Shown: piece by piece, positions 841-21,887 of the stretch | How the letters are laid out: every line of letters starts with the position of its first letter | Position numbering within the stretch: position 1 is the stretch's first letter | DNA from: Trichomonas vaginalis G3 | Lineage: Eukaryota > Parabasalia > Trichomonadida > Trichomonadidae | Reading direction: 5' to 3' | Assembly (NCBI RefSeq): GCF_026262505.1 | Contig: NC_067207.1 | Span: 17,328,082 to 17,392,081, forward strand | DNA length: 64,000 nt | Program-made: the position numbers and the translations under genes | Notes under the pieces: generated by a model | Told to the model about the DNA's origin: nothing | The model's database searches: none | Seen by the model: the letters and a program-made list of their open reading frames with translations, nothing else

Positions 841-860
841 AAAAAAAAAAAAAAAAAAAA

Positions 861-945
861 GGTAGTGGGGCTTCCAGGCACTTCGTGCCCTCTAGCCCTG
901 AAGATGTTTAGTATAAATGAAGTTTTTATTCGGAGGGCTTCCAGG
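861..945. repeat. GC-rich hairpins at the P2 left end
   Basis: Just inside the poly(A) end, GGCACTTCGTGCC forms a 5-bp stem with a TTC loop, and GGGCTTCCAGGAGC follows. The mirror is at about 21780-21870. They belong to the small hairpin family described in the findings. Confidence 0.55.
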
Positions 946-1030
946 AGCTTTTCACAAATTATATATGTTTTCATGTTTTGTCACTTTTCTGTCACTTTTC
1001 GGGTAAAAACATTTTTATTATTATATATAA

Positions 1031-1849
1031 ATGAATTTTACAAAACCACCGTTACCGTTCTTTGGAAATAAGAGTAGATGTAAAGATATTATATTGAGAG
1101 AACTTAAGAAACTACCGAATGGTCTAACATTTGTAGATTTGTTCGGTGGAAGTTTCTATATATCCCATTTATGTCATACAATATTCCCAGACTCAAAGAT
1201 TATATGCAATGACTTCGACAACTATATGGACCGTCTCAAACATATACCAGACACAAACAATATATTGAAAGAGTTAAAAGAAAAGATACCTATAGGTAAG
1301 ATGGAACGTATACCATTAGATAACAAAAATATTGTGAGAGAGGTTTTGAAAAAAGCAGAATATATAGACTGGGATAGTATATCTGCTAGACTATTATATA
1401 GTGGTGCTATAAGAGTTCATGACATTGAAACACTTATGTCAAAAGTTTTATATCTTAACTATACAAATGTTTTCAAAGAGGACATAGAAAAATATATTGA
1501 GGGTATAGAGTTTGTGAGATGTCATTGGACAGATTTGTATGAAAAATATAAAGACAAGGAAAATGTTTTCTTTATAGTGGACCCGCCGTTCTATAACACA
1601 TGGGATTTTCAATACCAAGTAGACTGGACTTTGAGAGACTCTTTAGAAACTTTAGACGTTTTACATAACCATCCATGCTTTTACTTTACATCCGATAAAA
1701 GTGGTTTGGAAAGTGTCATGAGATGGTTAGAGGACATACATGACTATGAGTTTAGATACGATAAGATAGAATATGAGAGAGGTCCTATAAACTGGAGAAA
1801 GTGTCATAACAAAGAAATTTTATTGGTAAGTAAATGTGGTTTGAAATAG
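1031..1849 (+). CDS. D12-class adenine-specific DNA methyltransferase (left copy)
   Basis: A 272-residue protein with the N-terminal PLPFFGNKS block of Dam-like enzymes near residues 6-14. A SAM-binding FVDLFGGS follows at about 35-42, and the catalytic DPPF is near residue 185. Order and spacing fit N6-adenine methyltransferases of the D12 (Dam) class, which methylate adenine in short duplex sites using S-adenosylmethionine. No restriction partner is nearby, so it may mark element DNA rather than form a restriction system. It is the outermost gene of each P2 arm and is preceded by TTTTTATTATTATATATAA. The frame is intact in both arms. Confidence 0.8.
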   Translation: MNFTKPPLPFFGNKSRCKDIILRELKKLPNGLTFVDLFGGSFYISHLCHTIFPDSKIICNDFDNYMDRLKHIPDTNNILKELKEKIPIGKMERIPLDNKNIVREVLKKAEYIDWDSISARLLYSGAIRVHDIETLMSKVLYLNYTNVFKEDIEKYIEGIEFVRCHWTDLYEKYKDKENVFFIVDPPFYNTWDFQYQVDWTLRDSLETLDVLHNHPCFYFTSDKSGLESVMRWLEDIHDYEFRYDKIEYERGPINWRKCHNKEILLVSKCGLK

Positions 1850-1965
1850 GACTACTTGTTTTAGGTTTTTTCCATTGTGTCATTTACTTATTTGACGTGG
1901 CAGAAAGATATAGAGAATATGAAGATGAACCAATGCCTGCAAATGTCCAGTATATGTACTCGTAA
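1834..1965 (+). CDS. Small single-span membrane protein (left copy)
   Basis: A 43-residue ORF that starts at ATG 1834, inside the last codons of the methyltransferase gene, and ends at TAA 1963-1965. Residues 2-20 form one hydrophobic stretch (WFEIGLLVLGFFHCVIYLF); the rest is charged. It is too short for most ORF callers, but the frame is kept in the other arm (20766-20897), which supports a real gene. No family is recognised. It could be a small virion or host-membrane protein. Confidence 0.5.
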   Translation: MWFEIGLLVLGFFHCVIYLFDVAERYREYEDEPMPANVQYMYS

Positions 1966-1988
1966 GAGATATTTTTATCTAATATTAA

Positions 1989-2351
1989 ATGGACGCACAG
2001 AACTTAGCGAATGCACAGCAACCTGGACAACCAAACCCAGAGAATATTCCAAATGAAGTTAGAATACAAACTGCAATGGCAAACTATGGTCAAGTGCCAA
2101 CAGATGTACAAATGCAAACTGCCATGTCAAATGACGCTGCGTTAGGTTTGCCACCATGGTATGCAAATATGAGATGGAAAGAGTTTTATACAAACCCTGA
2201 AGTGGGATATAAACAACTCTATGCAGATGACGCGAACACAGGAGTTGACCCAGAGTATGTTTTCTACCAGAGGAGAAATAGAATGTATGAGCTCCAGTTA
2301 AAGAATGCAATGGAACTCAACAGGAAACGTAAGAGACTAGGCGGACATTAG
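1989..2351 (+). CDS. Hypothetical Gln/Asn-rich protein (left copy)
   Basis: A 120-residue protein of unknown function. The first 50 residues are Gln/Pro/Asn-rich and contain a doubled VRIQTAMANYGQ / VQMQTAMSNDAA segment. The C-terminus is basic (NRKRKRLGGH). It starts at ATG 1989 behind ATTTTTATCTAATATTAA, the promoter-like motif seen before several P2 genes. The right copy at 20380-20742 is intact and nearly identical. Its position among virion-type genes suggests a small structural or DNA-binding protein, but this is a guess. Confidence 0.6.
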   Translation: MDAQNLANAQQPGQPNPENIPNEVRIQTAMANYGQVPTDVQMQTAMSNDAALGLPPWYANMRWKEFYTNPEVGYKQLYADDANTGVDPEYVFYQRRNRMYELQLKNAMELNRKRKRLGGH

Positions 2352-2369
2352 ATTTTTACATATAGTAAA

Positions 2370-2612
2370 ATGGGTTTCTTTGGAAGAATAGGAAACTTCT
2401 TTCGAAATGTTGGAAGAGGTATATGGAATGGAATAAAATCTGTCGGAAGAGGAATTTGGAACGGAGTCAAAAATATTGGTAAAAGAGTAGGTCAGTTTGT
2501 TGGTATTATACCTAAAGACCCTGAACCAGAAGAACAAGCTCCTGTTATACAACAGCCTGAACCTGCACCACAGTCTAGTTGGCAACCAAATCCAACACCT
2601 CAACCGTATTAA
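2370..2612 (+). CDS. Small amphipathic protein with proline-rich tail (left copy)
   Basis: An 80-residue protein. Residues 1-45 repeat the pattern GxxxNVGRGIWNGxKSVGRGIWNG, giving an amphipathic, Gly- and basic-rich helix. Residues 48-80 are Pro/Gln/Glu-rich. Such N-terminal amphipathic helices recall the membrane-active or DNA-condensing minor virion proteins of adenoviruses and Polintons (pVI/pX-like), but sequence alone does not prove this. It follows the 1989 gene by 18 bases, and its 3' end lies two bases from the end of the convergent gene at 2615. The right copy at 20119-20361 is intact. Confidence 0.6.
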   Translation: MGFFGRIGNFFRNVGRGIWNGIKSVGRGIWNGVKNIGKRVGQFVGIIPKDPEPEEQAPVIQQPEPAPQSSWQPNPTPQPY

Positions 2613-2614
2613 AA

Positions 2615-3463
2615 TCATATTTTTACCGTTCGATAGTAGTTGTATATGAAACTAAGTTCTAAGTAAAACGCATGGTATAATGGAACTATTCTCTTTCTTC
2701 CATCTGTTGTAAACCATACTTGAAAGTCTGAAATACTTCCACTCGGTGGTTCATATAGCTTTGTAGGTTTTTCGTAAAAGTCATTTGCCAAGCATAAAAA
2801 AGAGTTTTGTGCACCAGAAAATGAAGCATGAACTATAATAGCATCTGAGTCGAAAACATTTTCATATGTTCCATTAGGGTTTTCGACTTCATAAAAGTTC
2901 GGGTGTACTGGATATGCTGCAGGCTGATTTAACATCCTCAGAAATCTATGCCATGCCAAGTTGTTATATTTTGTAGAAATATAAACGTTTTCTCCAAGGT
3001 CTTCTATTCTATTGATTTTAACAGTTGCATTTTTCCTGTCATATATAATATCGAGATGGTACTCTCCTTCGTCAATGTTGTACTGTTTTGCATATTCGAG
3101 GTAGATATCGTTTATTTTTTCTTGAAAAGCTTGAAGAGTTGTTTCTAAGTTTACAAGCAAATTCACTTGTAAAAGTTTTCCCTGTTCAAATTTCTCATAC
3201 GTATGTTTTTCTTTGTTATAGTATCGAATTTCAAAAGCGACCGTAAATGGGAAACCATGTATGGCTTCTGAAATGAACTTCATTCTACGAAAGCCAATAG
3301 CTTTTGTGACGGATGGGTCTCTTAGCCATCTCAATGGGTAGTCAAAACGATAGCCTTCATGCTTTACGGTCTCTGTCTCAAACTTTTGACCGACATTCGT
3401 AAAAAGTTCATCTAATGGTTTAGTTGTAGCAACTCTTGAATTTTCTTTTTCTATTGAAAGCAT
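2615..3463 (-). CDS. Minor-capsid-like protein, paralogue 1 (left copy)
   Basis: A 282-residue intact protein. It is paralogous to the gene at 7858-8716: both share YRFDYP(L/I)RWL, KAIGFRR near residues 45-65, a central VHASFS segment, and a C-terminus with SDFQVWFTT(D/N)G followed by YLELSFIYNY. The C-terminal pattern (FxxWF, short charged turn, then a beta-rich hydrophobic end) also fits P1 27262-27741 and P3 49866-50717. I therefore infer a minor capsid or penton-type jelly-roll protein found in all three elements. It is read divergently from the fibre gene, with only 18 bases between the two start codons. Confidence 0.55.
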   Translation of the reverse strand: MLSIEKENSRVATTKPLDELFTNVGQKFETETVKHEGYRFDYPLRWLRDPSVTKAIGFRRMKFISEAIHGFPFTVAFEIRYYNKEKHTYEKFEQGKLLQVNLLVNLETTLQAFQEKINDIYLEYAKQYNIDEGEYHLDIIYDRKNATVKINRIEDLGENVYISTKYNNLAWHRFLRMLNQPAAYPVHPNFYEVENPNGTYENVFDSDAIIVHASFSGAQNSFLCLANDFYEKPTKLYEPPSGSISDFQVWFTTDGRKRIVPLYHAFYLELSFIYNYYRTVKI

Positions 3464-3481
3464 ATTTTATCTAGAATAAAA
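3464..3481. promoter_or_regulatory. 18-bp bidirectional promoter candidate (P2 left)
   Basis: The whole gap between two divergent ATGs reads ATTTTATCTAGAATAAAA. It is nearly self-complementary around TCTAGA, so both genes see an A/T run plus TCTA just before their starts. The same sequence separates the mirrored genes at 19250-19267. Confidence 0.5.
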
Positions 3482-4944
3482 ATGTCGAAAGAAACAGCGT
3501 CTATGAGAGAAATACAACACAACCGACAACTCATTTTGCAAGCTCTAAATAAGAACACAACAAACTTTTCAAACTATTCTAAGATATCTGAGTCATTGAA
3601 AGAAGGAAACTTAAAACTGACATTAAACCTTTAACAGACGAGTTTCTGTTTCAAGACAGTAAGAACCATACTGTCTGTGTAAATCCAACAAAAGGAACTT
3701 TAAACGAGAAACCTATAGATGAACTTCTTTTGAAAGCAGATGTTGACAACAAAGCTGACAAAGAGTATGTCATTGAAAAAGTTCAAGAAGAACATGACAG
3801 AGCAGATGCAACATATGCAACGAAAGAACATACTCATCCTGAACTAGCGGACAAAACATATGTTGACAATAAAATGTCAAGTGAAGTGACAAGAGCTGAA
3901 AACGAATATTCTAAAAAGACTCATACACATACCATTGCAAATATTACAAACTTACAAGAAACCTTAAACAGGAAAAGTGACGTTGGACATACACATACCA
4001 TTGCAAATATTACAAACTTACAAGAAACCTTAAACAGTAAAAGTGCCGTTGGACATACACATACCATTGCAAATATTACAAACTTACAAGAAACCTTAAA
4101 CAGTAAAAGTGCCGTTGGACATACACATACCATTGCAAATATTACAAACTTACAAGAAACCTTAAACAGGAAAAGTGACGTTGGACATACACATACATCT
4201 TCTGAAATAACAGACTTAAACGTTAGCCTTGAAAAGAAGGCAGATAAGAACCATACACACGATTTCTTCGCAACTGTTGGTATAGAAAATATTGAAGGAA
4301 CGGTTGAAGAAACTGGTGGGGATGTATTAAATTGGAAACCTCCTAACTTTCCACAAGGTTTAACATCGGATGAAGACATAACAACGATGAAATACACTAG
4401 ATGTAGAAATGTCTATGTCATGGAGGATGAAAACAAAGTTAAATTCACTGCTCAAGATTTATATGATAAAAAAGCTGACAAAACAGAGCTTCAAACATTA
4501 AAGATTGAAATACTTCAAACACTATATCCTATAGGTTCTATTTACACGTCAATGAACTCTACCAAACCAGAAGTAGTACTTGGTTTTGGAACTTGGACTC
4601 AAATAGTCGACAGGTTTTTGTATTGTGCAAACTCTTCAAAGGAAACAGGTGGAAGTAAAACGATTTCAGGTGCAAATTTACCTGCACACAGTCACTACAT
4701 AGATTTAGCTACATCTGAAGCAGGTTGGCATAAGCATAGATTTTGGGATTGGTCAGCAATGAAAAAAGGTAAAGGATATGATGTTAAAGACAACGTTCAG
4801 TTTGCTATAAATTGTTTCTGGGGTAGCACACAGGGAGAAGGAAACCATACACATCGCGTTTCAGGGTATACGCAAACAACGGGACAAAGTAAAGACTACA
4901 TGCCACCTTACATGACAGTTTACGCATGGTATAGAAATGCTTAG
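3482..4944 (+). pseudogene. Phage-like tail-fibre protein, frameshifted (left copy)
   Basis: An adhesion-type fibre of about 487 codons. The N-terminal domain is unknown. It is followed by KADVDNKADKEYV coiled-coil segments, then four 22-residue repeats of the HTHTIANITNLQETLN type (66-bp units, 3925-4193). The C-terminal tip has YPIGSIYTS, GTWTQIVDRFLY, HSHYIDL, HTHRVSGYTQTTG and PPYMTVYAW, the hallmarks of bacteriophage tail-fibre/collar tips whose HxH pairs bind metal. One base is missing at about 3629 relative to the right copy (CCC reduced to CC), which puts the first 50 codons out of frame. Its likely role is host attachment of the element's virion. Confidence 0.8.
3925..4193 (+). repeat. 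66-bp tandem repeats in fibre gene (left)
   Basis: Four nearly identical in-frame 66-bp units. Variant positions (RKSD versus SKSA) occur in the order D, A, A, D here. They occur in a different order in the right arm, so units have been exchanged by local recombination. Confidence 0.85.
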
Positions 4945-5897
4945 TCGTCATGTTCCACTTCTTTAGCATATTCGTCAGGAGTTGTCTTATATTTGTTAGG
5001 AACTGTCTTTGAAAGTATACCACCTTGAACCTTAACAAGTTTGAAACGAGGTCTGACAATAGTAGTTTTATCTTCTGCTTGCAGTCTGTACATTTTGCCA
5101 TGTTTGCCTAAAACTTCATAATATTCTCTTGTATACTTTCTTCTATTTTTACGAACACGAATGCGAGTACCTGTCGAGTTCCCATTGTTGTCATAGTCAA
5201 TAGTATTTTCATATGGGTCGCGTTTAGGTATTTCTATTTTTACTTTGTCACCTTTCTTAAGTTTGAAGCCTGGCATTCTTTCTTGTTTGTCTCTTTTGAC
5301 TAAACTATTAAATATATAGTCTTTCTCTAAGTCAGGGTTGTTTTTCATTTCTTCGGGGGAGTGGTTTCCCAAACCTTTTTGTTTACGGCTATTGTAAATA
5401 TTTAAAACTTGTCTCATCTTTGCCATGGAGAAGGTCTATATTTGTCGTCATATGACTTTCATTTGCTTCACCACCTTTGGTTGGTTTAAGTCTCTTAAGA
5501 TTTTTATACAACTGTCAATGACACCAAGAGCAGAATGGTTTTGGTCGACAATGAAATATTGGTTTACATTTTTTGAACGCAGATAGTTTTTAATATCGTC
5601 TGATTTGAAAGAATTTCACAGTCAGATGTCAGTTTGTGTTGGATGGTATTTGTCAACGAATATTGTCAAAGCAGTTTTCACATCTAAAATATTTTTGGAC
5701 CATAATGGTATGGCTTCACAGTATCTTGTGTTTTGACCAACAAATATTAACCAGTATGGAGGTCCATCTGTTCTAACTCTCGGAATGTTTTCCAAGATAT
5801 CCATAAACCAAGCATTTGGTGTTGAACTAAAGATTTTTACCATGAGTGCTTTCTTTGTCGCTTTAGAAACATAGGGGTCCTTGTTTGGATTCGTCAT
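4941..5897 (-). pseudogene. Polinton-type rve integrase, frameshifted (left copy)
   Basis: Left copy of the integrase that is nearly whole at 16844-17802. Relative to that copy it has a one-base insertion near 5636 (HPTKLTSD becomes HPTQTDI then stop), and a one-base loss near 5432 plus other small changes. The C-terminal 161 codons (4941-5426) remain open. The gene ends convergently with the fibre gene, overlapping it by four bases. See the right copy for domains. Confidence 0.8.
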
Positions 5898-5914
5898 TTT
5901 TTAACCCATAAGAA

Positions 5915-6311
5915 ATGGGTTTATTTGGCGCATTAGCAGGAGTTGCATCCAGATTTTTGCCCGCAGGGAACAATAGCCAGAGGTGTATTTGGAGTTGGAA
6001 GGAAGATTTTGAGTACATTAGGTATACTGAAAGAAAAGCACAACCTATTATACAAACTGTACAGAAAGGTTGGATGTAGCACGAATGCAGCAAATCTTAT
6101 TCCAAATCCTGAAACAAGAGGAAAAGTTCAAGGATGGATGGACAATGTAGGAAGACAAGTAGGAAACTATTATAACAAAGCAAATGACTACTATAACCAA
6201 GCAGGGCACTATATGGACCAAGGTGAAAGATTCTTTAACAGAGGATATAACCATGCACAACAATGGGTAAACAATAACCAACCGCAACCACCTCAAACTT
6301 GGGGAATGTAA
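5915..6311 (+). pseudogene. Amphipathic Gly/Ala-rich protein, frameshifted (left copy)
   Basis: Starts at ATG 5915 with MGLFGALAG, only 18 bases from the divergent integrase start. The first 15 codons match the right copy (16425-16826), then short indels near 5960 and 6040-6080 break the frame. The tail (NNQPQPPQTWGM) is intact. The right copy gives the 133-residue product. Confidence 0.65.
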
Positions 6312-6329
6312 AGTTTTTATGAGATGAAA

Positions 6330-6481
6330 ATGAACATACAGCATTGAGACAAATGGGTTCAAGATGGATTTGTCGGCTTCCAGCAGTTACACCACGTGTT
6401 TGTCAAGTCCTCCCTATACCTCAGGAAGTTTTAGACCGACTTAAAAAACCTAAACAACCAGTTGAAAACAAACCAAACTAA
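6330..6481 (+). pseudogene. Small basic protein, frameshifted (left copy)
   Basis: Left copy of the 51-codon gene at 16250-16405. One A is missing after ATGAAC, and three bases are missing in a CCA repeat. It stands between GAGATGAAA leader sequences that precede both this and the next gene. Confidence 0.5.
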
Positions 6482-6500
6482 AATTTTTTACTGAGATGAA

Positions 6501-7085
6501 ATGACCGAAGAAGTTGAAACGGTAGATTTGACACCACAAACAAAAAGTTCAGAACCATTGTCAAAACCTGTCAAAGAACTTACAGATGAAGAGAAAAATT
6601 CAATAATAGAAGGTGCCAGGTCTGGAAATGCAAACCCTAACTACAAAGTCACTTTTCATAGAAATGGAACGGCTAGTATCTCAAAAAAGAAACAAACTCT
6701 CACAAATAAAATATTGAAGTCTGAAGGAGTTTATGAGACAACAGATGGAAAAGTTTACTTCACTGACCAACAGTTCATTATAGAACATCTCATTGACTTA
6801 GAGTCGAAATATTCTAAACTTTACAACAAACACAAAAAGTTGAAAGGAAAACAAAAACAAATGGCATATGATATTTATGAAGATGTTGACGACACAACTA
6901 GACCAGCAAGTGAAGTAAAGTCAGCAGAACCGAAAAGTGACGAAAAACCAATAGAAGAAGGGAAGCCAATAGAAGAAGGGAAGCCAAAACCAAAGGTTAG
7001 TATTGAAACTAAACCAAGTCAACCTTCATTAGCTGGTATGGGTTGGCGTCAAAGACTTATGGTAGCTGGTGGTTACGTAAAGTAA
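6501..7085 (+). CDS. Hypothetical acidic/basic two-part protein (left copy)
   Basis: A 194-residue intact protein. The N-terminal region contains SIIEGARSGNANPNYKVTFHRNGTASISKKKQ. It continues with a coiled-coil stretch around 90-125 (IEHLIDLESKYSKLYNKHKKLKGKQ), a repeated PIEEGK linker and a basic C-terminus (WRQRLMVAGGYVK). The same architecture (SII..AR, short beta hairpin with a K-rich end, helix, basic PRRR or WRQR tail) occurs in P3 at 51048-51479 and in shorter form at 53600-53835. It is therefore a shared Polinton family of unknown function. The right copy is frameshifted. Confidence 0.6.
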   Translation: MTEEVETVDLTPQTKSSEPLSKPVKELTDEEKNSIIEGARSGNANPNYKVTFHRNGTASISKKKQTLTNKILKSEGVYETTDGKVYFTDQQFIIEHLIDLESKYSKLYNKHKKLKGKQKQMAYDIYEDVDDTTRPASEVKSAEPKSDEKPIEEGKPIEEGKPKPKVSIETKPSQPSLAGMGWRQRLMVAGGYVK

Positions 7086-7110
7086 AGGAAAAACATTTTT
7101 TTATTTTTAT

Positions 7111-7236
7111 TTGAACTGTACGCTGAGTTTTGTTGGAGAAGACCGTTGGGAAACTTGTTTGTTAGATGAGAAATATGAAATGGCATACCATTTAAAACAA
7201 AATATTTTTAAAAAACATTTTTTTATTTTATTTGAA
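7111..7236 (+). repeat. Partial duplication of the HNH gene 5' end
   Basis: A decayed copy of the first 20 or so codons of the next gene (ACGCTGAGT, GACCGTTGGGAAACTTG, ATGAGAAATATGAAAT). It is followed by GGCATACCATTTAAAAC, which matches the gene's own 3' end (about 7803-7825). It looks as if an upstream copy of the same gene was deleted down to its two ends. The right arm has the same arrangement at about 15500-15625. Confidence 0.6.
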
Positions 7237-7820
7237 ATGTACGCTGAGTTTGTTGGAACAGACCGTTGGGAAACTTGTTTGTTAGATGAGAAATATGAAA
7301 TTCACTGTTGTGAGTCATTTGAAGTCAGAAACAAAGAGACAAAAAGAGTTTTAAGCGAATGGGAGCGAAATAACGGATATACTACTATGAAGATGGTGGA
7401 AAACACTATTTTAAACATGTTGTCATTGCAACTCATTTTATACCGAATCCTAACAATTTACCTTTTGTAGACCATATAAACCGTATAAGAAACGACAATA
7501 GACTTGAGAACTTGCGTTGGGTCACTCGTTCTGAAAACAATAAGAACAAAAGCAAATTTCGAGATATTGTATTCGAATTTGTCGACGAACTAGAAGATGA
7601 AACAATTGAAATTACAGACTATGGCAAGCATACGCTTGAGTTTTACTACTATAGCGAAGAACAAGACTCTTTCTACTTTTATACCGGCGTAAACTATAGG
7701 AAATTACAAGTATGTTTTACTAAGGAAGGCTATGCTTATGTAAACGCTAGAGATGCAGATGGAAAATACGTTAGACTATATCTTAACAAATTCAAGAAGC
7801 TATATGGCATACCATTTTAA
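7237..7820 (+). pseudogene. HNH homing endonuclease, frameshifted (left copy)
   Basis: Starts at ATG 7237. The N-terminus has the NUMOD4-like pattern W..C..DEKYEI...FEVRNKETKRVL. It is followed by an HNH_3 core: KHVVIATHFIPNPNNLPFVDHIN then NRLENLRWVT, with His, Asn and the second His/Asn positions present. A C-terminal domain of about 90 residues (tyrosine-rich, beta) is unique. One G is missing at about 7390 (GGG to GG) relative to the right arm. It probably makes a site-specific cut and is itself a selfish gene within P2. Confidence 0.75.
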
Positions 7821-7857
7821 AACATTTTTTAAAACAGTATTTTTTTACATATATTAA

Positions 7858-8716
7858 ATTTCAGGTTGAAAAACAAAGAACAAAAGTAGCAGATACAAAA
7901 CCGTTAGACTATATCTTCACAAACGCTGGTAGGACAATATCAGATGAAGAAATTTCATCCCGAACATACAGGTTTGACTATCCAATTCGTTGGCTTCAAA
8001 GTCCTTCAGATGCAAAGGCAATAGGATTTAGAAGAGTTTTGTTTTCAAAAAGAACTAACGCATTTATGTTCGCAGTATATTTTCATGGTCAGTATAGAGG
8101 TTCTAATGGTCTAATAGACAAATTTGACGAAATGAGAATCTTTACAATTCGTTCAGACGAAAACCTTGAGAAGACTCTAAATGACTTTCAAACTCAAATG
8201 AACAAATATTATTGGGAATTTCAAGAAAAATACGACTCTTTACTAAATGGAACATACTATCTGAAGCTAGAATATGACAAGATGAACTCCACAGTTTCAT
8301 TTCAAAGGATTGAAAATAACCCTCCAAGAGATACACAGTTTTTATTTTGGGAAGTAGACAAACGTTCTTGGGCACAATTTCTTCGGTTACTAAACCAGAA
8401 CGAACCATTACCACCTGACGGTCCGTTTAAATTTATACGCCCACCAACAGATTTGACAGTTTATAGAAATGTGTTTGACCCTCAAAATGTCATGTGTCAT
8501 GCAAGTTTCAGTTCAAGCAACAACAGTTTTCTATGTATCGGTAAGGACTTTTATGACTTTGCTTCTAAATTCTACGAACCACCTAGTAACAGTTTCTCTG
8601 ACTTTCAAGTTTGGTTCACAACAAATGGTGTGCAACATATTATTCCATTGTACTATGACTTTTATCTCGAATTGTCTTTCATATATAACTACGGAAAAGT
8701 GCTGAAAAAGTATTGA
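7858..8716 (+). pseudogene. Minor-capsid-like protein, paralogue 2, start codon lost (left copy)
   Basis: A frame of about 285 codons equivalent to 14019-14878. The ATG present in the right copy is reduced to a lone A here (TTAAATTTCAGG). The rest is open to TGA 8714-8716. It shares YRFDYPIRWL, KAIGFRR, MCHASFSSSNNSFLC and SDFQVWFTTNG with the 2615-3463 protein. Two diverged paralogues per arm suggest two versions of one virion vertex or minor protein. Confidence 0.6.
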
Positions 8717-8807
8717 AAAATAATGTTTAGGGTAGAAGGTTAGATCTAACCTCTTTTCTAACATCGTAGAAAACTCATGAAAACAATTTATTTTTGTGAA
8801 TATGTAA

Positions 8808-8882
8808 GCGGCTCATAGCTCAGTGGTATGGGCTACCTCGTTAAAGGCGTCGAAGACCTCGGTTCAAATCCCGATTCGCGCA
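8808..8882 (+). tRNA. tRNA-like gene, degenerate cloverleaf (left copy)
   Basis: It has a consensus A box (TAGCTCAGTGG) and B box (GGTTCAAATCC) at normal tRNA distance, and ends at a T6 run, a Pol III terminator. The cloverleaf is poor: only three acceptor pairs form, and the T stem pairs only if its loop is eight bases. A TAA triplet falls in the anticodon region. I regard it as a tRNA-derived Pol III unit, not a proven functional tRNA. Confidence 0.45.
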
Positions 8883-8920
8883 GGTTTTTTCCTTTTATGC
8901 AGTGAAATTTCATGTACATA

Positions 8921-9044
8921 GGTTACTTTGGTGTTAGACCCTAGTGAAGAAAATAGAACGATATAAGTTTACATTTGTAAGGTTATTTTGGTGTTAGACC
9001 CTAGTGAAGAAAATAGAACGATATAAGTTTACATTTGTAAGGTT
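8921..9044 (+). repeat. Two 60-bp direct repeats
   Basis: Two copies differ only at ACTTTGG versus ATTTTGG. Each contains GGTGTTAGACCCTAGTG and AGAACGATATAAG. They lie between the tRNA-like gene and the 21-bp array. The mirrored pair is at 13691-13814. Confidence 0.85.
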
Positions 9045-9048
9045 GGAC

Positions 9049-11270: not shown

Positions 11271-11272
11271 AT

Positions 11273-13359: not shown

Positions 13360-13389
13360 TCGTCTGTGGCTTAACCGTCGGACCACAAC

Positions 13390-13686: not shown

Positions 13687-13690
13687 GTCC

Positions 13691-13814
13691 AACCTTACAA
13701 ATGTAAACTTATATCGTTCTATTTTCTTCACTAGGGTCTAACACCAAAATAACCTTACAAATGTAAACTTATATCGTTCTATTTTCTTCACTAGGGTCTA
13801 ACACCAAAGTAACC
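13691..13814 (-). repeat. Two 60-bp direct repeats (right)
   Basis: Mirror of 8921-9044. Confidence 0.85.
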
Positions 13815-13852
13815 TATGTACATGAAATTTCACTGCATAAAAGGAAAAAACC

Positions 13853-13927
13853 TGCGCGAATCGGGATTTGAACCGAGGTCTTCGACGCCTTTAACGAGGT
13901 AGCCCATACCACTGAGCTATGAGCCGC
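13853..13927 (-). tRNA. tRNA-like gene, degenerate cloverleaf (right copy)
   Basis: Identical to 8808-8882 in reverse complement, including A box, B box and the T6 run downstream (13845-13850 on this strand). The same unusual T arm occurs in both arms, so it is not a single read error. Confidence 0.45.
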
Positions 13928-14018
13928 TTACATATTCACAAAAATAAATTGTTTTCATGAGTTTTCTACGATGTTAGAAAAGAGGTTAGATCTAACCTTC
14001 TACCCTAAACATTATTTT

Positions 14019-14878
14019 TCAATACTTTTTCAGCACTTTTCCGTAGTTATATATGAAAGACAATTCGAGATAAAAGTCATAGTACAATGGAATAATATGT
14101 TGCACACCATTTGTTGTGAACCAAACTTGAAAGTCAGAGAAACTGTTACTAGGTGGTTCGTAGAATTTAGAAGCAAAGTCATAAAAGTCCTTACCGATAC
14201 ATAGAAAACTGTTGTTGCTTGAACTGAAACTTGCATGACACATGACATTTTGAGGGTCAAACACATTTCTATAAACTGTCAAATCTGTTGGTGGGCGTAT
14301 AAATTTAAACGGACCGTCAGGTGGTAATGGTTCGTTCTGGTTTAGTAACCGAAGAAATTGTGCCCAAGAACGTTTGTCTACTTCCCAAAATAAAAACTGT
14401 GTATCTCTTGGAGGGTTATTTTCAATCCTTTGAAATGAAACTGTGGAGTTCATCTTGTCATATTCTAGCTTCAGATAGTATGTTCCATTTAGTAAAGAGT
14501 CGTATTTTTCTTGAAATTCCCAATATATTTGTTCATTTGAGTTTGAAAGTCATTTAGAGTCTTCTCAAGGTTTTCGTCTGAACGAATTGTAAAGATTCTC
14601 ATTTCGTCAAATTTGTCTATTAGACCATTAGAACCTCTATACTGACCATGAAAATATACTGCGAACATAAATGCGTTAGTTCTTTTTGAAAACAAAACTC
14701 TTCTAAATCCTATTGCCTTTGCATCTGAAGGACTTTGAAGCCAACGAATTGGATAGTCAAACCTGTATGTTCGGGATGAAATTTCTTCATCTGATATTGT
14801 CCTACCAGCGTTTGTGAAGATATAGTCTAACGGTTTTGTATCTGCTACTTTTGTTCTTTGTTTTTCAACCTGAAACAT
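14019..14878 (-). pseudogene. Minor-capsid-like protein, paralogue 2 (right copy)
   Basis: Here the ATG is present (14878) and the first 117 codons are open. A one-base loss near 14525 (TATTATTGGG to TATATTGGG) shifts the frame; the last 144 codons are open again in the original frame. The left copy is intact at that spot but lacks the start. The protein belongs with 2615-3463; see that entry for the shared motifs and the capsid inference. Confidence 0.65.
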
Positions 14879-14915
14879 TTAATATATGTAAAAAAATACT
14901 GTTTTAAAAAATGTT

Positions 14916-15499
14916 TTAAAATGGTATGCCATATAGCTTCTTGAATTTGTTAAGATATAGTCTAACGTATTTTCCATCTGCATCTCTAGCGTTTACATAA
15001 GCATAGCCTTCCTTAGTAAAACATACTTGTAATTTCCTATAGTTTACGCCGGTATAAAAGTAGAAAGAGTCTTGTTCTTCGCTATAGTAGTAAAACTCAA
15101 GCGTATGCTTGCCATAGTCTGTAATTTCAATTGTTTCATCTTCTAGTTCGTCGACAAATTCGAATACAATATCTCGAAATTTGCTTTTGTTCTTATTTTT
15201 TCAGAACGAGTGACCCAACGCAAGTTCTCAAGTCTATTGTCGTTTCTTATACGGTTTATATGGTCTACAAAAGGTAAATTGTTAGGATTCGGTATAAAAT
15301 GAGTTGCAATGACAACATGTTTAAAATAGTGTTTTCCACCCATCTTCATAGTAGTATATCCGTTATTTCGCTCCCATTCGCTTAAAACTCTTTTTGTCTC
15401 TTTGTTTCTGACTTCAAATGACTCACAACAGTGAATTTCATATTTCTCATCTAACAAACAAGTTTCCCAACGGTCTGTTCCAACAAACTCAGCGTACAT
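14916..15499 (-). pseudogene. HNH homing endonuclease, frameshifted (right copy)
   Basis: The right copy keeps the frame through the NUMOD4-like part and the whole HNH core (MKMGGKHYFKHVV to ENLRWVTRSE), where the left copy is broken. It then loses one base in an A run near 15199, so the C-terminal domain is out of frame. An upstream partial duplication of the 5' end lies at about 15500-15625. Confidence 0.75.
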
Positions 15500-15646
15500 T
15501 TCAAATAAAATAAAAAAATGTTTTTTAAAAATATTTTGTTTTAAATGGTATGCCATTTCATATTTCTCATCTAACAAACAAGTTTCCCAACGGTCTTCTC
15601 CAACAAAACTCAGCGTACAGTTCTAAAAAAAAAAAATGTTTTTCCT

Positions 15647-16230
15647 TTACTTTACGTAACCACCAGCTACCATAAGTCTTTGACGCCAACCCATACCAGC
15701 TAATGAAGGTTGACTTGGTTTAGTTTCAATACTAACCTTTGGTTTTGGCTTCCCTTCTTCTATTGGCTTCCCTTCTTCTATTGGTTTTTCGTCACTTTTC
15801 GGTTCTGCTGACTTTACTTCACTTGCTGGTCTAGTTGTGTCGTCAACATCTTCATAAATATCATATGCCATTTGTTTTGTTTTCCTTTCAACTTTTTGTG
15901 TTTGTTGTAAAGTTTAGAATATTTCGACTCTAAGTCAATGAGATGTTCTATAATGAACTGTTGGTCAGTGAAGTAAACTTTTCCATCTGTTGTCTCATAA
16001 ACTCCTTCAGACTTCAATATTTTATTTGTGAGAGTTTGTTTCTTTTTTGAGATACTAGCCGTTCCATTTCTATGAAAAGTGACTTTGTAGTTAGGGTTTG
16101 CATTTCCAGACCTGGCACCTTCTATTATTGAATTTTTCTCTTCATCTGTAAGTTCTTTGACAGGTTTTGACAATGGTTCTGAACTTTTTGTTTGTGGTGT
16201 CAAATCTACCGTTTCAACTTCTTCGGTCAT
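15647..16230 (-). pseudogene. Hypothetical two-part protein, frameshifted (right copy)
   Basis: Same gene as 6501-7085. One A is missing in an A run near 15877, splitting it into 138- and 74-codon frames. The protein is otherwise identical. Confidence 0.6.
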
Positions 16231-16249
16231 TTCATCTCAGTAAAAAATT

Positions 16250-16405
16250 TTAGTTTGGTTTGTTTTCAACTGGTTGTTTAGGTTTTTTAAGTCGGTCTAA
16301 AACTTCCTGAGGTATAGGGAGGACTTGACAAACACGTGGTGGTGTAACTGCTGGAAGCCGACAAATCCATCTTGAACCCATTTGTCTCAATGCTGTATTG
16401 TTCAT
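16250..16405 (-). CDS. Small basic protein (right copy, intact)
   Basis: A 51-residue frame from ATG 16405 to TAA 16250-16252. It is rich in Arg, Pro and Val (WICRLPAVTPPRVCQVLPIP then KKPKQP). It starts 20 bases after the end of the amphipathic protein gene, behind TTTTTTACTGAGATGAA, the same leader as the next gene. Unknown; probably a minor virion component given its neighbours. Confidence 0.5.
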   Translation of the reverse strand: MNNTALRQMGSRWICRLPAVTPPRVCQVLPIPQEVLDRLKKPKQPVENKPN

Positions 16406-16424
16406 TTCATCTCAGTAAAAAACT

Positions 16425-16826
16425 TTACATTCCCCACGTTTGAGGCGGTTGAGGTTGGTTATTGTTTACCCACTGTTGTGCATGGTTATATCCTCTGTTA
16501 AAGAATCTTTCACCTTGGTCCATATAGTGCCCTGCTTGGTTATAGTAGTCATTTGCTTTGTTATAATAGTTTCCTGCTTGTCTTCCTACATTGTCCATCC
16601 ATCCTTGAACTTTTCCTCTTGTTTCAGGATTTGGAATAAGATTTGCTGCATCTCGTGCTACATCCCAACCTTTCTGTACAGTTTGTATAATAGGTTGTGC
16701 TTTCTCTTTCAGTATACCTAATGTACTCAAAATCTTCCTTCCAATTCCAAATGCACCTCTGGCTAGTGTTCCCACTGCGGGTAAAAATCTAGATGCGACT
16801 CCTGCTATTGCGCCAAATAAACCCAT
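16425..16826 (-). CDS. Amphipathic Gly/Ala-rich protein, pVI-like candidate (right copy, intact)
   Basis: A 133-residue protein. Residues 1-30 (MGLFGAIAGVASRFLPAVG...) form a hydrophobic, glycine-rich helix like a membrane-lytic peptide. A helical region follows, then a Tyr/Asn/Gln-rich repeat (NYYNKANDYYNQAGHY) and a QPQPPQTWG tail. Adenovirus-lineage and Polinton minor capsid proteins of the pVI type start with such a helix; the match here is by character, not by alignment. It is read divergently from the integrase, with 17 bases between start codons. Confidence 0.55.
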   Translation of the reverse strand: MGLFGAIAGVASRFLPAVGTLARGAFGIGRKILSTLGILKEKAQPIIQTVQKGWDVARDAANLIPNPETRGKVQGWMDNVGRQAGNYYNKANDYYNQAGHYMDQGERFFNRGYNHAQQWVNNNQPQPPQTWGM

Positions 16827-16843
16827 TTCTTATGGGTTAAAAA

Positions 16844-17802
16844 ATGACGAATCCAAACAAGGACCCCTATGTTTCTAAAGCGACAAAGAAAGCACTCATG
16901 GTAAAAATCTTTAGTTCAACACCAAATGCTTGGTTTATGGATATCTTGGAAAACATTCCGAGAGTTAGAACAGATGGACCACCATACTGGCTAATATTTG
17001 TCGGTCAAAACACAAGATACTGTGAAGCCATACCATTATGGTCCAAAAATATTTTAGATGTGAAAACTGCTTTGACAATATTCGTTGACAAATACCATCC
17101 AACAAAACTGACATCTGACTGTGAAAGTTCTTTCAAATCAGACGATATTAAAAACTATCTGCGTTCAAAAAATGTAAACCAATATTTCATTGTCGACCAA
17201 AACCATTCTGCTCTTGGTGTCATTGACAGTTGTATAAAAATCTTAAGAGACTTAAACCAACCACAAGGTGGTGAAGCAAATGAAATGTCATATGACGACA
17301 AATATAGACACTTCTCCATGGCAAAGATGAGACAAGTTTTAAATATTTACAATAACCGTAAACAAAAAGGTTTGGGAAACCACTCCCCGAAGAAATGAAA
17401 AACAACCCTGACTTAGAGAAAGACTATATATTTAATAGTTTAGTCAAAAGAGACAAACAAGAAAGAATGCCAGGCTTCAAACTTAAGAAAGGTGACAAAG
17501 TAAAAATAGAAATACCCAAACGTGACCCATATGAAAATACTATTGACTATGACAACAATGGGAACTCGACAGGTACTCACATTCGTGTTCGTAAAAATAG
17601 AAGAAAGTATACAAGAGAATATTATGAAGTTTTAGGCAAACATGGCAAAATGTACAGACTGCAAGCAGAAGATAAAACTACTATTGTCAGACCTCGTTTC
17701 AAACTTGTTAAGGTTCAAGGTGGTATACTTTCAAAGACAGTTCCTAACAAATATAAGACAACTCCTGACGAATATGCTAAAGAAGTGGAACATGACGACT
17801 AA
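16844..17802 (+). pseudogene. Polinton-type rve integrase with DD35D triad (right copy, one frameshift)
   Basis: Catalytic core: Asp33 in AWFMDILENI, Asp92 in LTSDCESS and Asp128 in GVIDSCIKILRD. The last two are separated by exactly 35 residues as in DD35E enzymes, but an Asp stands where Glu is usual. A linker and a basic SH3/chromo-like C-terminal domain (KLKKGDKVKIEIPKRD, YTREYYEVLGKHGKMYRL) follow. It inserts the linear element and should make the 5-bp target duplication seen at the P2 ends. One C is missing at about 17388 (CCCCC to CCCC), splitting the gene into 184- and 135-codon frames. It overlaps the end of the fibre gene by four bases. Confidence 0.85.
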
Positions 17803-19249
17803 GCATTTCTATACCATGCGTAAACTGTCATGTAAGGTGGCATGTAGTCTTTACTTTGTCCCGTTGTTTGCGTATACCCTGAAACGCGATGTGTATGGTT
17901 TCCTTCTCCCTGTGTGCTACCCCAGAAACAATTTATAGCAAACTGAACGTTGTCTTTAACATCATATCCTTTACCTTTTTTCATTGCTGACCAATCCCAA
18001 AAATGCTATGCTTCAGATGTAGCTAAATCTATGTAGTGACTGTGTGCAGGTAAATTTGCACCTGAAATCGTTTTACTTCCACCTGTTTCCTTTGAAGAGT
18101 TTGCACAATACAAAAACCTGTCGACTATTTGAGTCCAAGTTCCAAAACCAAGTACTACTTCTGGTTTGGTAGAGTTCATTGACGTGTAAATAGAACCTAT
18201 AGGATATAGTGTTTGAAGTATTTCAATCTTTAATGTTTGAAGCTCTGTTTTGTCAGCTTTTTTATCATATAAATCTTGAGCAGTGAATTTAACTTTGTTT
18301 TCATCCTCCATGACATAGACATTTCTACATCTAGTGTATTTCATCGTTGTTATGTCTTCATCCGATGTTAAACCTTGTGGAAAGTTAGGAGGTTTCCAAT
18401 TTAATACATCCCCACCAGTTTCTTCAACCGTTCCTTCAATATTTTCTATACCAACAGTTGCGAAGAAATCGTGTGTATGGTTCTTATCTGCCTTCTTTTC
18501 AAGGCTAACGTTTAAGTCTGTTATTTCAGAAGATGTATGTGTATGTCCAACGTCACTTTCCTGTTTAAGGTTTCTTGTAAGTTTGTAATATTTGCAATGG
18601 TATGTGTATGTCCAACGGCACTTTTACTGTTTAAGGTTTCTTGTAAGTTTGTAATATTTGCAATGGTATGTGTATGTCCAACGTCACTTTTCCTGTTTAA
18701 GGTTTCTTGTAAGTTTGTAATATTTGCAATGGTATGTGTATGTCCAACGTCACTTTTCCTGTTTAAGGTTTCTTGTAAGTTTGTAATATTTGCAATGGTA
18801 TGTGTATGAGTCTTTTTAGAATATTCGTTTTCAGCTCTTGTCACTTCACTTGACATTTTATTGTCAACATATGTTTTGTCCGCTAGTTCAGGATGAGTAT
18901 GTTCTTTCGTTGCATATGTTGCATCTGCTCTGTCATGTTCTTCTTGAACTTTTTCAATGACATACTCTTTGTCAGCTTTGTTGTCAACATCTGCTTTCAA
19001 AAGAAGTTCATCTATAGGTTTCTCGTTTAAAGTTCCTTTTGTTGGATTTACACAGACAGTATGGTTCTTACTGTCTTGAAACAGAAACTCGTCTGTTAAA
19101 GGGTTTAATGTCAGTTTTAAGTTTCCTTCTTTCAATGACTCAGATATCTTAGAATAGTTTGAAAAGTTTGTTGTGTTCTTATTTAGAGCTTGCAAAATGA
19201 GTTGTCGGTTGTGTTGTATTTCTCTCATAGACGCTGTTTCTTTCGACAT
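17799..19249 (-). pseudogene. Phage-like tail-fibre protein, frameshifted (right copy)
   Basis: The N-terminal 230 codons, broken in the left copy, are open here. The frame is lost at about 18560 (CACTTTCC versus CACTTTTCC) inside the repeats. A 12-base deletion with changes at about 18006 creates a stop in the tip domain. The four 22-residue repeats carry variants in a different order from the left copy. Domains are as described for 3482-4944. Confidence 0.8.
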
Positions 19250-19267
19250 TTTTATTCTAGATAAAAT
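19250..19267. promoter_or_regulatory. 18-bp bidirectional promoter candidate (P2 right)
   Basis: Mirror of 3464-3481, with the near-palindromic TCTAGA core between divergent start codons. Confidence 0.5.
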
Positions 19268-20116
19268 ATGCTTTCAATAGAAAAAGAAAATTCAAGAGTT
19301 GCTACAACTAAACCATTAGATGAACTTTTTACGAATGTCGGTCAAAAGTTTGAGACAGAGACCGTAAAGCATGAAGGCTATCGTTTTGACTACCCATTGA
19401 GATGGCTAAGAGACCCATCCGTCACAAAAGCTATTGGCTTTCGTAGAATGAAGTTCATTTCAGAAGCCATACATGGTTTCCCATTTACGGTCGCTTTTGA
19501 AGTTCGATACTATAACAAAGAAAAACGTACGTATGAGAAATTTGAACAGGGAAAACTTTTACAAGTGAATTTGCTTGTAAACTTAGAAACAACTCTTCAA
19601 GCTTTTCAAGAAAAAATAAACGATATCTACCTCGAATATGCAAAACAGTACAACATTGACGAAGGAGAGTACCATCTCGATATTATATATGACAGGAAAA
19701 ATGCAACTGTTAAAATCAATAGAATAGAAGACCTTGGAGAAGACGTTTATATTTCTACAAAATATAACAACTTGGCATGGTATAGGTTTCTGAGGATGTT
19801 AAATCAGCCTGCAGCATATCCAGTACACCCGAACTTTTATGAAGTCGAAAACCCTAATGGAACATATGAAAATGTTTTCGACTCAGATGCTATTATAGTT
19901 CATGCTTCATTTTCTGGTGCACAAAACTCTTTTTTATGCTTGGCAAATGACTTTTACGAAAAACCTACAAAGCTATATGAACCACCGAGTGGAAGTATTT
20001 CAGACTTTCAAGTATGGTTTACAACAGATGGAAGAAAGAGAATAGTTCCATTATACCATGCGTTTTACTTAGAACTTAGTTTCATATACAACTACTATCG
20101 AACGGTAAAAATATAA
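19268..20116 (+). CDS. Minor-capsid-like protein, paralogue 1 (right copy)
   Basis: An intact 282-residue protein differing from 2615-3463 by a few substitutions (for example EIRYYNKEKHTY versus EVRYYNKEKRTY, ENVYI versus EDVYI, WHRF versus WYRF). Both copies have stayed open while neighbours are broken. Confidence 0.55.
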   Translation: MLSIEKENSRVATTKPLDELFTNVGQKFETETVKHEGYRFDYPLRWLRDPSVTKAIGFRRMKFISEAIHGFPFTVAFEVRYYNKEKRTYEKFEQGKLLQVNLLVNLETTLQAFQEKINDIYLEYAKQYNIDEGEYHLDIIYDRKNATVKINRIEDLGEDVYISTKYNNLAWYRFLRMLNQPAAYPVHPNFYEVENPNGTYENVFDSDAIIVHASFSGAQNSFLCLANDFYEKPTKLYEPPSGSISDFQVWFTTDGRKRIVPLYHAFYLELSFIYNYYRTVKI

Positions 20117-20118
20117 TT

Positions 20119-20361
20119 TTAATACGGTTGAGGTGTTGGATTTGGTTGCCAACTTGACTGTGGTGCAGGTTCAGGTTGTTGTATAACAGGAGCTTGTTCT
20201 TCTGGTTCAGGGTCTTTAGGTATAATACCAACGAACTGGCCTACTCTTTTACCAATATTTTTGACTCCGTTCCATACTCCTCTTCCGACAGATTTTATTC
20301 CATTCCATATACCTCTTCCAACATTTCGAAAGAAGTTTCCTATTCTTCCAAAGAAACCCAT
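20119..20361 (-). CDS. Small amphipathic protein with proline-rich tail (right copy)
   Basis: 80 residues, as at 2370-2612 with one conservative change (GRGIW to GRGVW). Confidence 0.6.
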   Translation of the reverse strand: MGFFGRIGNFFRNVGRGIWNGIKSVGRGVWNGVKNIGKRVGQFVGIIPKDPEPEEQAPVIQQPEPAPQSSWQPNPTPQPY

Positions 20362-20379
20362 TTTACTATATGTAAAAAT

Positions 20380-20742
20380 CTAATGTCCGCCTAGTCTCTT
20401 ACGTTTCCTGTTGAGTTCCATAGCATTTTTTAACTGGAGCTCATACATTCTATTTCTCCTCTGGTAGAAAACATACTCTGGGTCAACTCCTGTGTTCGCG
20501 TCATCTGCATAGAGTTGTTTATATCCCACTTCAGGGTTTGTATAAAACTCTTTCCATCTCATATTTGCATACCATGGTGGTAAGCCTAACGCAGCGTCAT
20601 TTGACATGGCAGTTTGCATTTGTACATCTGTTGGCACTTGACCATAGTTTGCCATTGCAGTTTGTATTCTAACTTCATTTGGAATATTCTCTGGGTTTGG
20701 TTGTCCAGGTTGCTGTGCATTCGCTAAGTTCTGTGCGTCCAT
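20380..20742 (-). CDS. Hypothetical Gln/Asn-rich protein (right copy)
   Basis: 120 residues, identical in protein to 1989-2351. Confidence 0.6.
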   Translation of the reverse strand: MDAQNLANAQQPGQPNPENIPNEVRIQTAMANYGQVPTDVQMQTAMSNDAALGLPPWYANMRWKEFYTNPEVGYKQLYADDANTGVDPEYVFYQRRNRMYELQLKNAMELNRKRKRLGGH

Positions 20743-20765
20743 TTAATATTAGATAAAAATATCTC

Positions 20766-20897
20766 TTACGAGTACATATGCTGAACATTTGCAGGCATTG
20801 GTTCATCTTCATATTCTCTATATCTTTCTGCCACGTCAAATAAGTAAATGACACAATGGAAAAAATCTAAAACAAGTAGTCCTATTTCAAACCACAT
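20766..20897 (-). CDS. Small single-span membrane protein (right copy)
   Basis: 43 residues, overlapping the methyltransferase end as in the left arm. A few substitutions (for example LGFF to LDFF inside the hydrophobic stretch), frame kept. Confidence 0.5.
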   Translation of the reverse strand: MWFEIGLLVLDFFHCVIYLFDVAERYREYEDEPMPANVQHMYS

Positions 20898-21700
20898 TTA
20901 CTTACCAATAAAATTTCTTTGTTATGACACTTTCTCCAGTTTATAGGACCTCTCTCATATTCTATCTTATCGTATCTAAACTCATAGTCATGTATGTCCT
21001 CTAACCATCTCATGACACTTTCCAAACCACTTTTATCGAATGTAAAGTAAAAGCATGGATGGTTATGTAAAACGTCTAAAGTTTCTAAAGAGTCTCTCAA
21101 AGTCCAGTCTACTTGGTATTGAAAATCCCATGTGTTATAGAACGGCGGGTCCACTATAAAGAAAACATTTTCCTTGTCTTTATATTTTTCATACAAATCT
21201 GTCCAATGACATCTCACAAACTCTATACCCTCAATATATTTTTCTATGTCCTCTTTGAAAACATTTGTATAGTTAAGATATAAAACTTTTGACATAAGTG
21301 TTTCAATGTCATGAACTCTTATAGCACCACTATATAATAGTCTAGCAGATATACTATCCCAGTCTATATATTCTGCTTTTTTCAAAACCTCTCTCACAAT
21401 ATTTTTGTTATCTAATGGTATACGTTCCATCTTACCTATAGGTATCTTTTCTTTTAACTCTTTCAATATATTGTTTGTGTCTGGTATATGTTTGAGACGG
21501 TCCATATAGTTGTCGAAGTCATTGCATATAATCTTTGAGTCTGGGAATATTGTATGACATAAATGGGATATATAGAAACTTCCACCGAACAAATCTACAA
21601 ATGTTAGACCATTCGGTAGTTTCTTAAGTTCTCTCAATATAATATCTTTACATCTACTCTTATTTCCAAAGAACGGTAACGGTGGTTTTGTAAAATTCAT
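20882..21700 (-). CDS. D12-class adenine-specific DNA methyltransferase (right copy)
   Basis: 272 residues, intact, with the same FGNKS, DLFGGS and DPPF motifs as 1031-1849. One substitution is visible (FTSDKSG to FTFDKSG). Confidence 0.8.
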   Translation of the reverse strand: MNFTKPPLPFFGNKSRCKDIILRELKKLPNGLTFVDLFGGSFYISHLCHTIFPDSKIICNDFDNYMDRLKHIPDTNNILKELKEKIPIGKMERIPLDNKNIVREVLKKAEYIDWDSISARLLYSGAIRVHDIETLMSKVLYLNYTNVFKEDIEKYIEGIEFVRCHWTDLYEKYKDKENVFFIVDPPFYNTWDFQYQVDWTLRDSLETLDVLHNHPCFYFTFDKSGLESVMRWLEDIHDYEFRYDKIEYERGPINWRKCHNKEILLVSKCGLK

Positions 21701-21887
21701 TTATATATAATAATAAAAATGTTTTTACCCGAAAAGTGACAGAAAAGTGACAAAACATGAAAACATATATAATTTGTGAAAAGCTCCTGGAAGCCCTCCG
21801 AATAAAAACTTCATTTATACTAAACATCTTCAGGGCTAGAGGGCACGAAGTGCCTGGAAGCCCCACTACCTTTTTTTTTTTTTTTTT

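Follow-up and report, generated by a model that had tools for sequence, protein, structure and literature searches.

Mirror-image ends and defective genomes are already known in linear DNA viruses. Adenoviruses replicate with a protein-primed type B DNA polymerase (PolB), and their symmetric defective genomes carry one end as an inverted duplication, have like ends and depend on a helper. The poxvirus replication set includes a D5-like primase-helicase, as in the lineage described here, and the mirrored part of a poxvirus genome is a small share of the whole, unlike in our element. Poxvirus mirror-image terminal rearrangements lengthen the terminal repeats, as in our element, although poxviruses are cytoplasmic viruses with hairpin telomeres (PMC9415595). 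Variants of the HCMV strains AD169 and Towne belong to a herpesvirus and, unlike our element, are not integrated; the opening of the abstract on them does not mention loss of capsid genes (PMC2885757). In yeast origin-dependent inverted-repeat amplification (ODIRA), pre-existing interrupted inverted repeats fix the junctions of an inverted dimer, the point of likeness to our element, but the setting is chromosomal, the repeats are short and the intermediate is a dimeric plasmid (PMC4689423). The Maverick-Polintons of Trichomonas vaginalis make up about one third of its DNA and are described with DUF4106 and terminal inverted repeats, as in the ordinary relatives of our element, which itself has no DUF4106 and a different layout (PMC10120064). 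The string "palindrom-" is absent from the main text of that paper, and our literature search, in which subscription journals were thinly covered, returned nothing that dealt, by title or abstract, with a palindromic Polinton.

The window analysed here is a stretch of 64,000 nucleotides from the assembled genome of T. vaginalis G3, in which a palindromic element, P2, occupies positions 841-21887. Aligning 844-10434 with 21887-12301 gave 9,610 columns at 99.14% identity with 42 gap bases, an inverted match of 9.6 kb for which chance is excluded, and the two arms are separated by a 1.87-kb loop (10435-12300). Both termini consist of an A-run followed by GGTAGTGGGGCTTCC, and the motif GGTAGTGG is confined to 861 and 21870 within the window. 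The element is flanked by a 5-bp target duplication, AAAAC (836-840 and 21888-21892). The two inverted arms, unique centre and like ends of the preliminary description are thus confirmed. Once joined, the flanks form a single open frame, and the empty site, taken as 200 bp of joined flank, was identical and unbroken at all 40 places scored from 478 candidates. Similarity between the arms is uneven along their length: the inner 2,225 bp have no differences (P = 2e-5 under an even spread of substitutions). An Rfam search of positions 1-23000 returned no match, nor did exact patterns compared with viral contigs, a set that may omit records near the window's genome.

The family of P2 has 2,066 terminus sites; its ordinary members are ~21-26 kb long and have two unlike halves, A and B. 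The A half encodes methyltransferase-like, fibre-like and, by predicted fold, penton-like DUF7777 proteins, and the B half a DUF4106 major capsid protein and a D5-like helicase. The ordinary order is B half, 106-bp array, DUF3839 gene, inverted 97-bp array, A half. Terminal inverted repeats and a target duplication within the 5-6-bp range are features of Polintons/Mavericks that are found here too, and the A and B ends of the family have a terminus in common and repeats that resemble each other. Relatives with the P2 end once, a polymerase and a capsid gene had been proposed as a check. In 15 of 17 size-selected terminus pairs the A half was indeed present once, with a different B half, and DUF4106 was found in ordinary members with P2-type termini (L047, E 3.6e-231; also L041 and L044), but the members sampled showed no PolB motif or match.

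P2 is an A-A derivative of such a capsid-bearing Maverick/Polinton-like element. Its right arm (12301-21887, minus strand) is an A half at the ordinary position, beginning with inverted 97-type units (12301-12926, minus strand). The single DUF3839 gene (304 aa; 11273-12187, minus strand) lies in the unpaired loop, followed by eight 106-type units (10454-11266, plus strand) that correspond to the ordinary B-side array. The array then continues, across a junction of ~60 bp common to both unit types (10374-10434, plus strand), into a stretch (9889-10434, plus strand) with three 97-type units that mirror those of the A side. Beyond them, where ordinary members hold the B half, the left arm (841-10434, plus strand; assigned from the arm alignment and the repeat-unit types) is an inverted copy of the A half. 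This continuation of the B-side array into 97-type units and a second A half identifies P2 as an A-A derivative that has lost B. With ~1.9 kb viewed on each side, the B side was free of 97-type units, and the A side of 106-type units, at all 29 other DUF3839 loci. The 97-to-106 order occurred at one of 79 fetched loci, P2's own, most of the 79 being without array coverage. In both paired elements that could be checked, L017 and L023, B lay on the side expected from the orientation of DUF3839.

The genes of the arm are those of an A half. From the left terminus inwards, they encode a DNA methyltransferase-like protein (272 aa; 1031-1849, plus strand; PHROG 56, E 4.5e-15), a DUF7777 protein identified by Pfam (282 aa; 2615-3463, minus strand) with a putative penton-like jelly roll in the predicted structure, a fibre-like protein (404 aa; 3730-4944, plus strand) in which Pfam recognised a phage tail repeat and a Gp10 C-terminal domain, and a second DUF7777 protein (225 aa; 8039-8716, plus strand; Pfam). 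Between the last two lies an HNH segment (7210-7834, plus strand); B halves carry a homologue of it in the opposite orientation, which marks where a second palindrome, described below, is joined. The predicted DUF7777 fold resembles the mavirus penton; a profile search of the PDB returned no credible relative. Of six B-half proteins compared with P2, among them the DUF4106 major capsid and the helicase-like protein, none had a match (0 of 6). The earlier statement that P2 has no capsid gene therefore stands for the major capsid protein but not for the putative penton-like and fibre-like genes, which are kept.

An integrase had also been said to be kept. The candidate in the outer arm was rejected, as the 272-aa protein is methyltransferase-like, and a PDB sequence search with that protein gave no match. 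Pfam found no integrase family among nine distinct P2 ORFs, a subset of its ORFs, and no retroviral-type DDE integrase (rve) in these or in 20 ORFs of L041, L042 and L047; the P3 integrase had no tblastn match in P2, L039-L052, L017 or L023. A diverged integrase may be present in P2 or its relatives. Some NCBI entries call DUF3839 an "organellar and viral DNA polymerase type B", a name that no PolB profile or motif bears out; its predicted model is poor (pLDDT 40). No scanned P2 ORF matched a PolB profile, DTDS/SLYP motifs were absent from stop-to-stop frames of at least 60 aa in P2, L017, L039-L042, L044 and L046-L048, and PolB pieces from P1, the element in which P2 is nested, had no tblastn match in P2, L039-L052, L017 or L023. 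Scoring of 91 out of 2554 candidates listed 15 PolB places on C1, and none of these fell within the 17 terminus pairs. In contrast to adenoviruses with their PolB, sampled members of the lineage thus showed none, and the only replication gene recognised was the D5-like primase-helicase part, in which a plain Walker A motif was searched for and not found. The proposed descent from a fuller element is borne out in that one end was mirrored and the other half lost, but not as regards an ancestral polymerase. From the absent genes we infer that P2 may depend on a helper. P1 had been suggested for that role and was rejected: it hosts P2, has different termini and carries a 6-bp target duplication, AAGTTT.

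P2 has the anatomy of a snap-back defective genome, with one end duplicated in inverted form, like termini and core genes missing. Judged from sequence, this would fit the fold-back of a single strand and equally recombination or conversion; protein-primed snap-back is a possible route. We consider it likely that the loss of B in P2 came about through copying of A at inverted repeats; this confidence covers the core of the account, an A-A element made by copying at the arrays, and not its timing. The copying would take place as the element replicated or as a broken B end was repaired. The growing strand, already carrying A, DUF3839 and some of the B-side array, would pair with the inverted A-side array, either in the same molecule or in a sister, and its extension would run back to the A terminus, so that the resulting linear molecule had an A end on each side. 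As to timing, we somewhat favour copying on an extrachromosomal genome, after which the palindrome would integrate using functions of ordinary A-B members.

The arms of P2 are mutually closest among ten arms in a tree of a 2-kb block (support 1.000), a block that contains much of the difference between them, and are 12.5 substitutions per kb apart, against 27.5-41.1 to the eight other arms. Such sister arms are what copying within one molecule, or between near-identical molecules, predicts. Of the 39 arm substitutions open to comparison, 20 occur in either state among other elements. Between the arms there are 41-45 substitutions, and between the 826-bp terminal repeats of P1 none (Fisher P = 0.034 with 41, 0.024 with 45). 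Lying inside P1, P2 must have inserted later, yet its arms have diverged and the P1 repeats have not; the arms were therefore probably non-identical at insertion, or later exchanged sequence with other elements. The shared-state substitutions and the divergence in excess of the P1 repeats both count against the copying account.

Conversion within the chromosome would have the same junction and donor and differ in timing: the B half of a resident A-B element would be replaced by A-half sequence, through break-induced replication or gene conversion, over a tract that starts in the inverted arrays and ends in the shared terminal repeats, with the target duplication kept. Because A and B ends have the same terminus and similar repeats, such a tract would be homologous at both limits; for the same reason the clean target duplication, once taken to argue that a palindrome was inserted, is not decisive. 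The mosaic of arm differences, about half of them shared alleles, and the fact that the palindrome is single for its 40-mer also agree with conversion, but a tract of ~9.6 kb reaching the terminus is required, and the donor would have to be the A half of P2 itself or one close to it; we regard this explanation as rather unlikely. The shared alleles would also suit a recombination in which the inverted arrays of two separate elements united A halves of unlike origin, as would a probable third palindrome whose arms are as unlike as those of different elements; this is less probable still, as in both P2 and the second palindrome the two arms are sisters, closer to each other than to any other of the ten.

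Duplication or misjoining of arms by the assembler, or fold-back reads, might be suspected in a highly repetitive family, the more so as the single-base indels between the arms partly resemble consensus errors, which are documented in such elements (PMC10120064). We hold an artefact to be very improbable: the flanks are unlike each other yet share the target duplication, whereas fold-back reads would be expected to mirror them as well, the arms differ where other elements vary as well, the junction falls exactly between unit types, and the second palindrome has its own target duplication. Nesting does occur here, P2 lying within P1, but two head-to-head or nested insertions are scarcely credible for an element with two termini, one target duplication, a single DUF3839 gene and GGTAGTGG only at its two positions in the window.

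The A-A layout recurs in other elements of the family. A second palindrome (C1:10473581-10496535, target duplication GGTTC) has arms 99.15% alike over 6.7 kb that are again sisters (support 0.995). It switches at the HNH segment, which is present inverted in the A and B halves, and is the same outcome at a different pre-existing inverted repeat. L049/L050 shows a 1.4-kb version of the mirrored arrangement with a 4-bp overlap. A third palindrome is probable, but its arms are only 96.6% alike over 533 columns, a value also seen between different elements. No second palindromic copy of P2 was found: of the 98 sites of its 40-mer, one pair faced each other within 30 kb. The 40-mer surveys gave facing pairs at close to the chance rate (0.4-1.0 expected within 30 kb, on rough by-eye counts of plus and minus sites), and these are therefore not counted as proof.

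In T. vaginalis such products lie inside chromosomes, with relatives of their parents, target sites and junctions legible. P2 shows one route by which defective mirror genomes can form and come to be in the chromosome of a human parasite, its halves meeting at repeats whose facing orientation is already present in ordinary relatives. The DUF3839 arrays and inverted HNH segments make testable predictions of where junctions lie, and the T. vaginalis elements could reveal which repeats seed them, how constant the donor end is and whether such satellites spread at all. We tentatively suggest, at somewhat less than even confidence, that T. vaginalis holds recurrent mirror-image satellite genomes: capsid-bearing elements would time and again shed all or the outer part of B and make good the missing end by recopying A at built-in inverted repeats, over 1.4 to nearly 10 kb, and the A-A molecules would integrate via functions from ordinary members. 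If so, the genome would preserve defective viral genomes as a kind of fossil record.

P2 occupies positions 841–21887 of the window, which is C5:17328082–17392081, and in a self-comparison one long inverted match joined 844–10434 to 21887–12301, with 99.14% identity over 9,610 columns. Both termini consist of an A-run followed by GGTAGTGGGGCTTCC, and AAAAC flanks the element at left and right, confirming the two ~9.6-kb inverted arms with the same ends and target duplication reported in the preliminary description. Once joined, the flanks form a single open frame. When the genome (180.85 Mb, 86 contigs) was searched with a 200-base joined flank, the sequence was identical and uninterrupted in all 40 places scored (478 candidates), and the match to these empty-site copies extends 1.5 kb along P2's right flank. 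The element carrying the insertion, P1 (1–840 + 21888–39068), is one ~18-kb PolB-bearing Maverick interrupted by P2, with 826-bp terminal repeats and a 6-bp target duplication, AAGTTT. One repeat lies at 38243–39068, and the other begins 259 bases ahead of the window and ends at base 568; their alignment has 828 columns, 2 gaps and no substitutions.

The 29-base terminus (≤1 mismatch) occurs 1,022 + 1,044 times genome-wide. From 100 listed places, all on contig C1, we picked by eye 17 facing neighbours spaced 20–27 kb apart, leaving out other spacings; seven pairs were read as 10-kb ends and ten via 200-base probes ~4.6 kb inside each end. Among these size-selected C1 pairs, 15 of 17 joined an A half to a B half, two were A-A and none was B-B. 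The A half encodes a methyltransferase-like protein (absent from the element with ends L039/L040), two DUF7777 proteins and a fibre-like protein. The predicted fold of one DUF7777 protein (2615–3463) matched the mavirus penton in Foldseek (E 1.2e-5, with a low TM), which marks DUF7777 as a candidate for the penton protein in T. vaginalis elements. A portion of the C-terminal end of the fibre-like gene (4600–4935) shares 92.6% DNA identity with P1 (29867–30202), which suggests that the domain moves between two lineages of elements.

The B half at L047, an end of an ordinary element, encodes DUF4106 (E 3.6e-231), identified in a passage of PMC10120064 as the major capsid protein of T. vaginalis elements. 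It also encodes HNH, DUF4108 and a protein of 411 aa that matched DUF5906 and primase/helicase models; for this protein the P4-primase match fell below its curated cut-off and a plain Walker A motif was not found. HNH aside, none of six B proteins matches P2. This ordinary element (C1:15970876–15996285) was read over ~23.9 of its 25.4 kb (L047, L048, L017); neither PolB, by motif or by match, nor a match to integrase turned up in that sequence. The expected relatives carrying P2's end once exist as A-B members, with the capsid gene at L047 and no PolB found in the sequence read from that element. Canonical Polintons are described by a protein-primed PolB and a DDE integrase (PMC6431247); judged by their genes, neither P2 nor the relatives sampled are canonical Polintons. 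Elsewhere in the window, P3 (45096–56394) is 11.3 kb long and has terminal repeats of 0.68 kb, a further inverted pair (46804–47241/54057–54494), a PolB-like motif and an rve integrase; one of its proteins, of 524 aa, shares 22% identity with a protein from the B half in P2's family. A 2.4-kb element at 56900–59338, with terminal repeats of 0.6 kb, carries an integrase-like gene that is a relative of P3's (46% over one 106-column stretch).

In P2's orientation the ordinary order is B, an array of 106-bp units, DUF3839, an inverted array of 97-bp units, and A, the side of B being known for L017 and L023. We scored 39 other full DUF3839 places and fetched 29 with 1.5 kb per side: 106-type units lay on the B side in 26 of 29 and on the A side in none; 17 of the 29 had 97-type units on the A side, and none had them on the B side. 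P2 has 106-type units at 10454–11190. Farther out on that side come 97-type units at 10347, 10250 and 9889, which mirror, in register, those at 12388, 12485 and 12846. The two unit types have ~60 bases in common up to 10434 and diverge after it. From this placement and the common bases, P2's left half is best read as the copy and its right half as the one in the usual position, the switch apparently using inverted homology of a kind already present in ordinary members. Some NCBI entries title DUF3839 proteins (P2 11273–12187) 'organellar and viral DNA polymerase type B'; neither a PolB profile match nor a PolB motif was found in DUF3839, and the name may be wrong.

P2 is not the only such element. 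The arms of L039/L040 (C1:10473581–10496535) are 99.15% identical over 6.7 kb, with the target duplication GGTTC at both sides; on its right side, B sequence with DUF4108 is followed by an HNH segment, which is inverted between the A and B halves in some ordinary members, and then by the A arm. C1:2296902–2320578, read in pieces only, has A at both probes and arms 96.6% identical over 533 columns; A/T runs mask its target duplication, TTTTA fits, and it is probably a third palindrome. L049/L050, counted among the 15 A-B pairs, has a longer A stretch than usual: its B end carries 1.4 kb of sequence from the A end, joined with a 4-base overlap, which by its sequence is a small mirrored end. Mirroring thus recurs, with lengths and junctions that vary, and in all four cases A sequence stands at B's expected place.

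Facing pairs of 40-mers were counted by eye. Of all 98 sites of a 40-mer common to P2's arms, only P2's two face within 30 kb, as is also true of the best 40 matches to the outer arm. Among the matches listed, a second A 40-mer gave two facing pairs (100 of 296) and a third gave one (100 of 234), corresponding to L039/L040 and C1:2296902–2320578, and a B 40-mer gave none (100 of 491). Further A pairs face at 35–55 kb, four for the 234-site 40-mer among the matches listed and one for the 98-site 40-mer. Because these counts are near chance expectation (~0.4–1.0 facing pairs), it is the termini, the arms and the target duplications that carry the case for palindromes.

In a 2-kb block the P2 arms group as sisters with support 1.000; they differ by 12.5 substitutions per kb from each other and by 27.5–41.1 from eight other arms. 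The arms of L039/L040 are also sisters (0.995). The P2 differences are unevenly spread and spare both the inner 2,225 bp and the outer 848 bp. At 39 substitutions with data (4–14 other arms per site; two more had none), both alleles occur in other elements at 20; 12 are specific to the right arm and 7 to the left. These mixed alleles indicate that the arms either derive from elements that were not identical or have exchanged sequence with such elements; one-base indels private to an arm may be errors in the consensus. The substitution-free P1 repeats suggest that arm divergence is older than the insertion, or came from later conversion (arms versus repeats, P = 0.034 with 41 substitutions counted, 0.024 with 45).

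P2 looks like a product of snap-back or end repair, a genome whose lost B end was regrown from A. P1, previously proposed as P2's helper, is instead the host of the insertion. As P2 lacks the major capsid and helicase, it should depend on ordinary members and not on P1.
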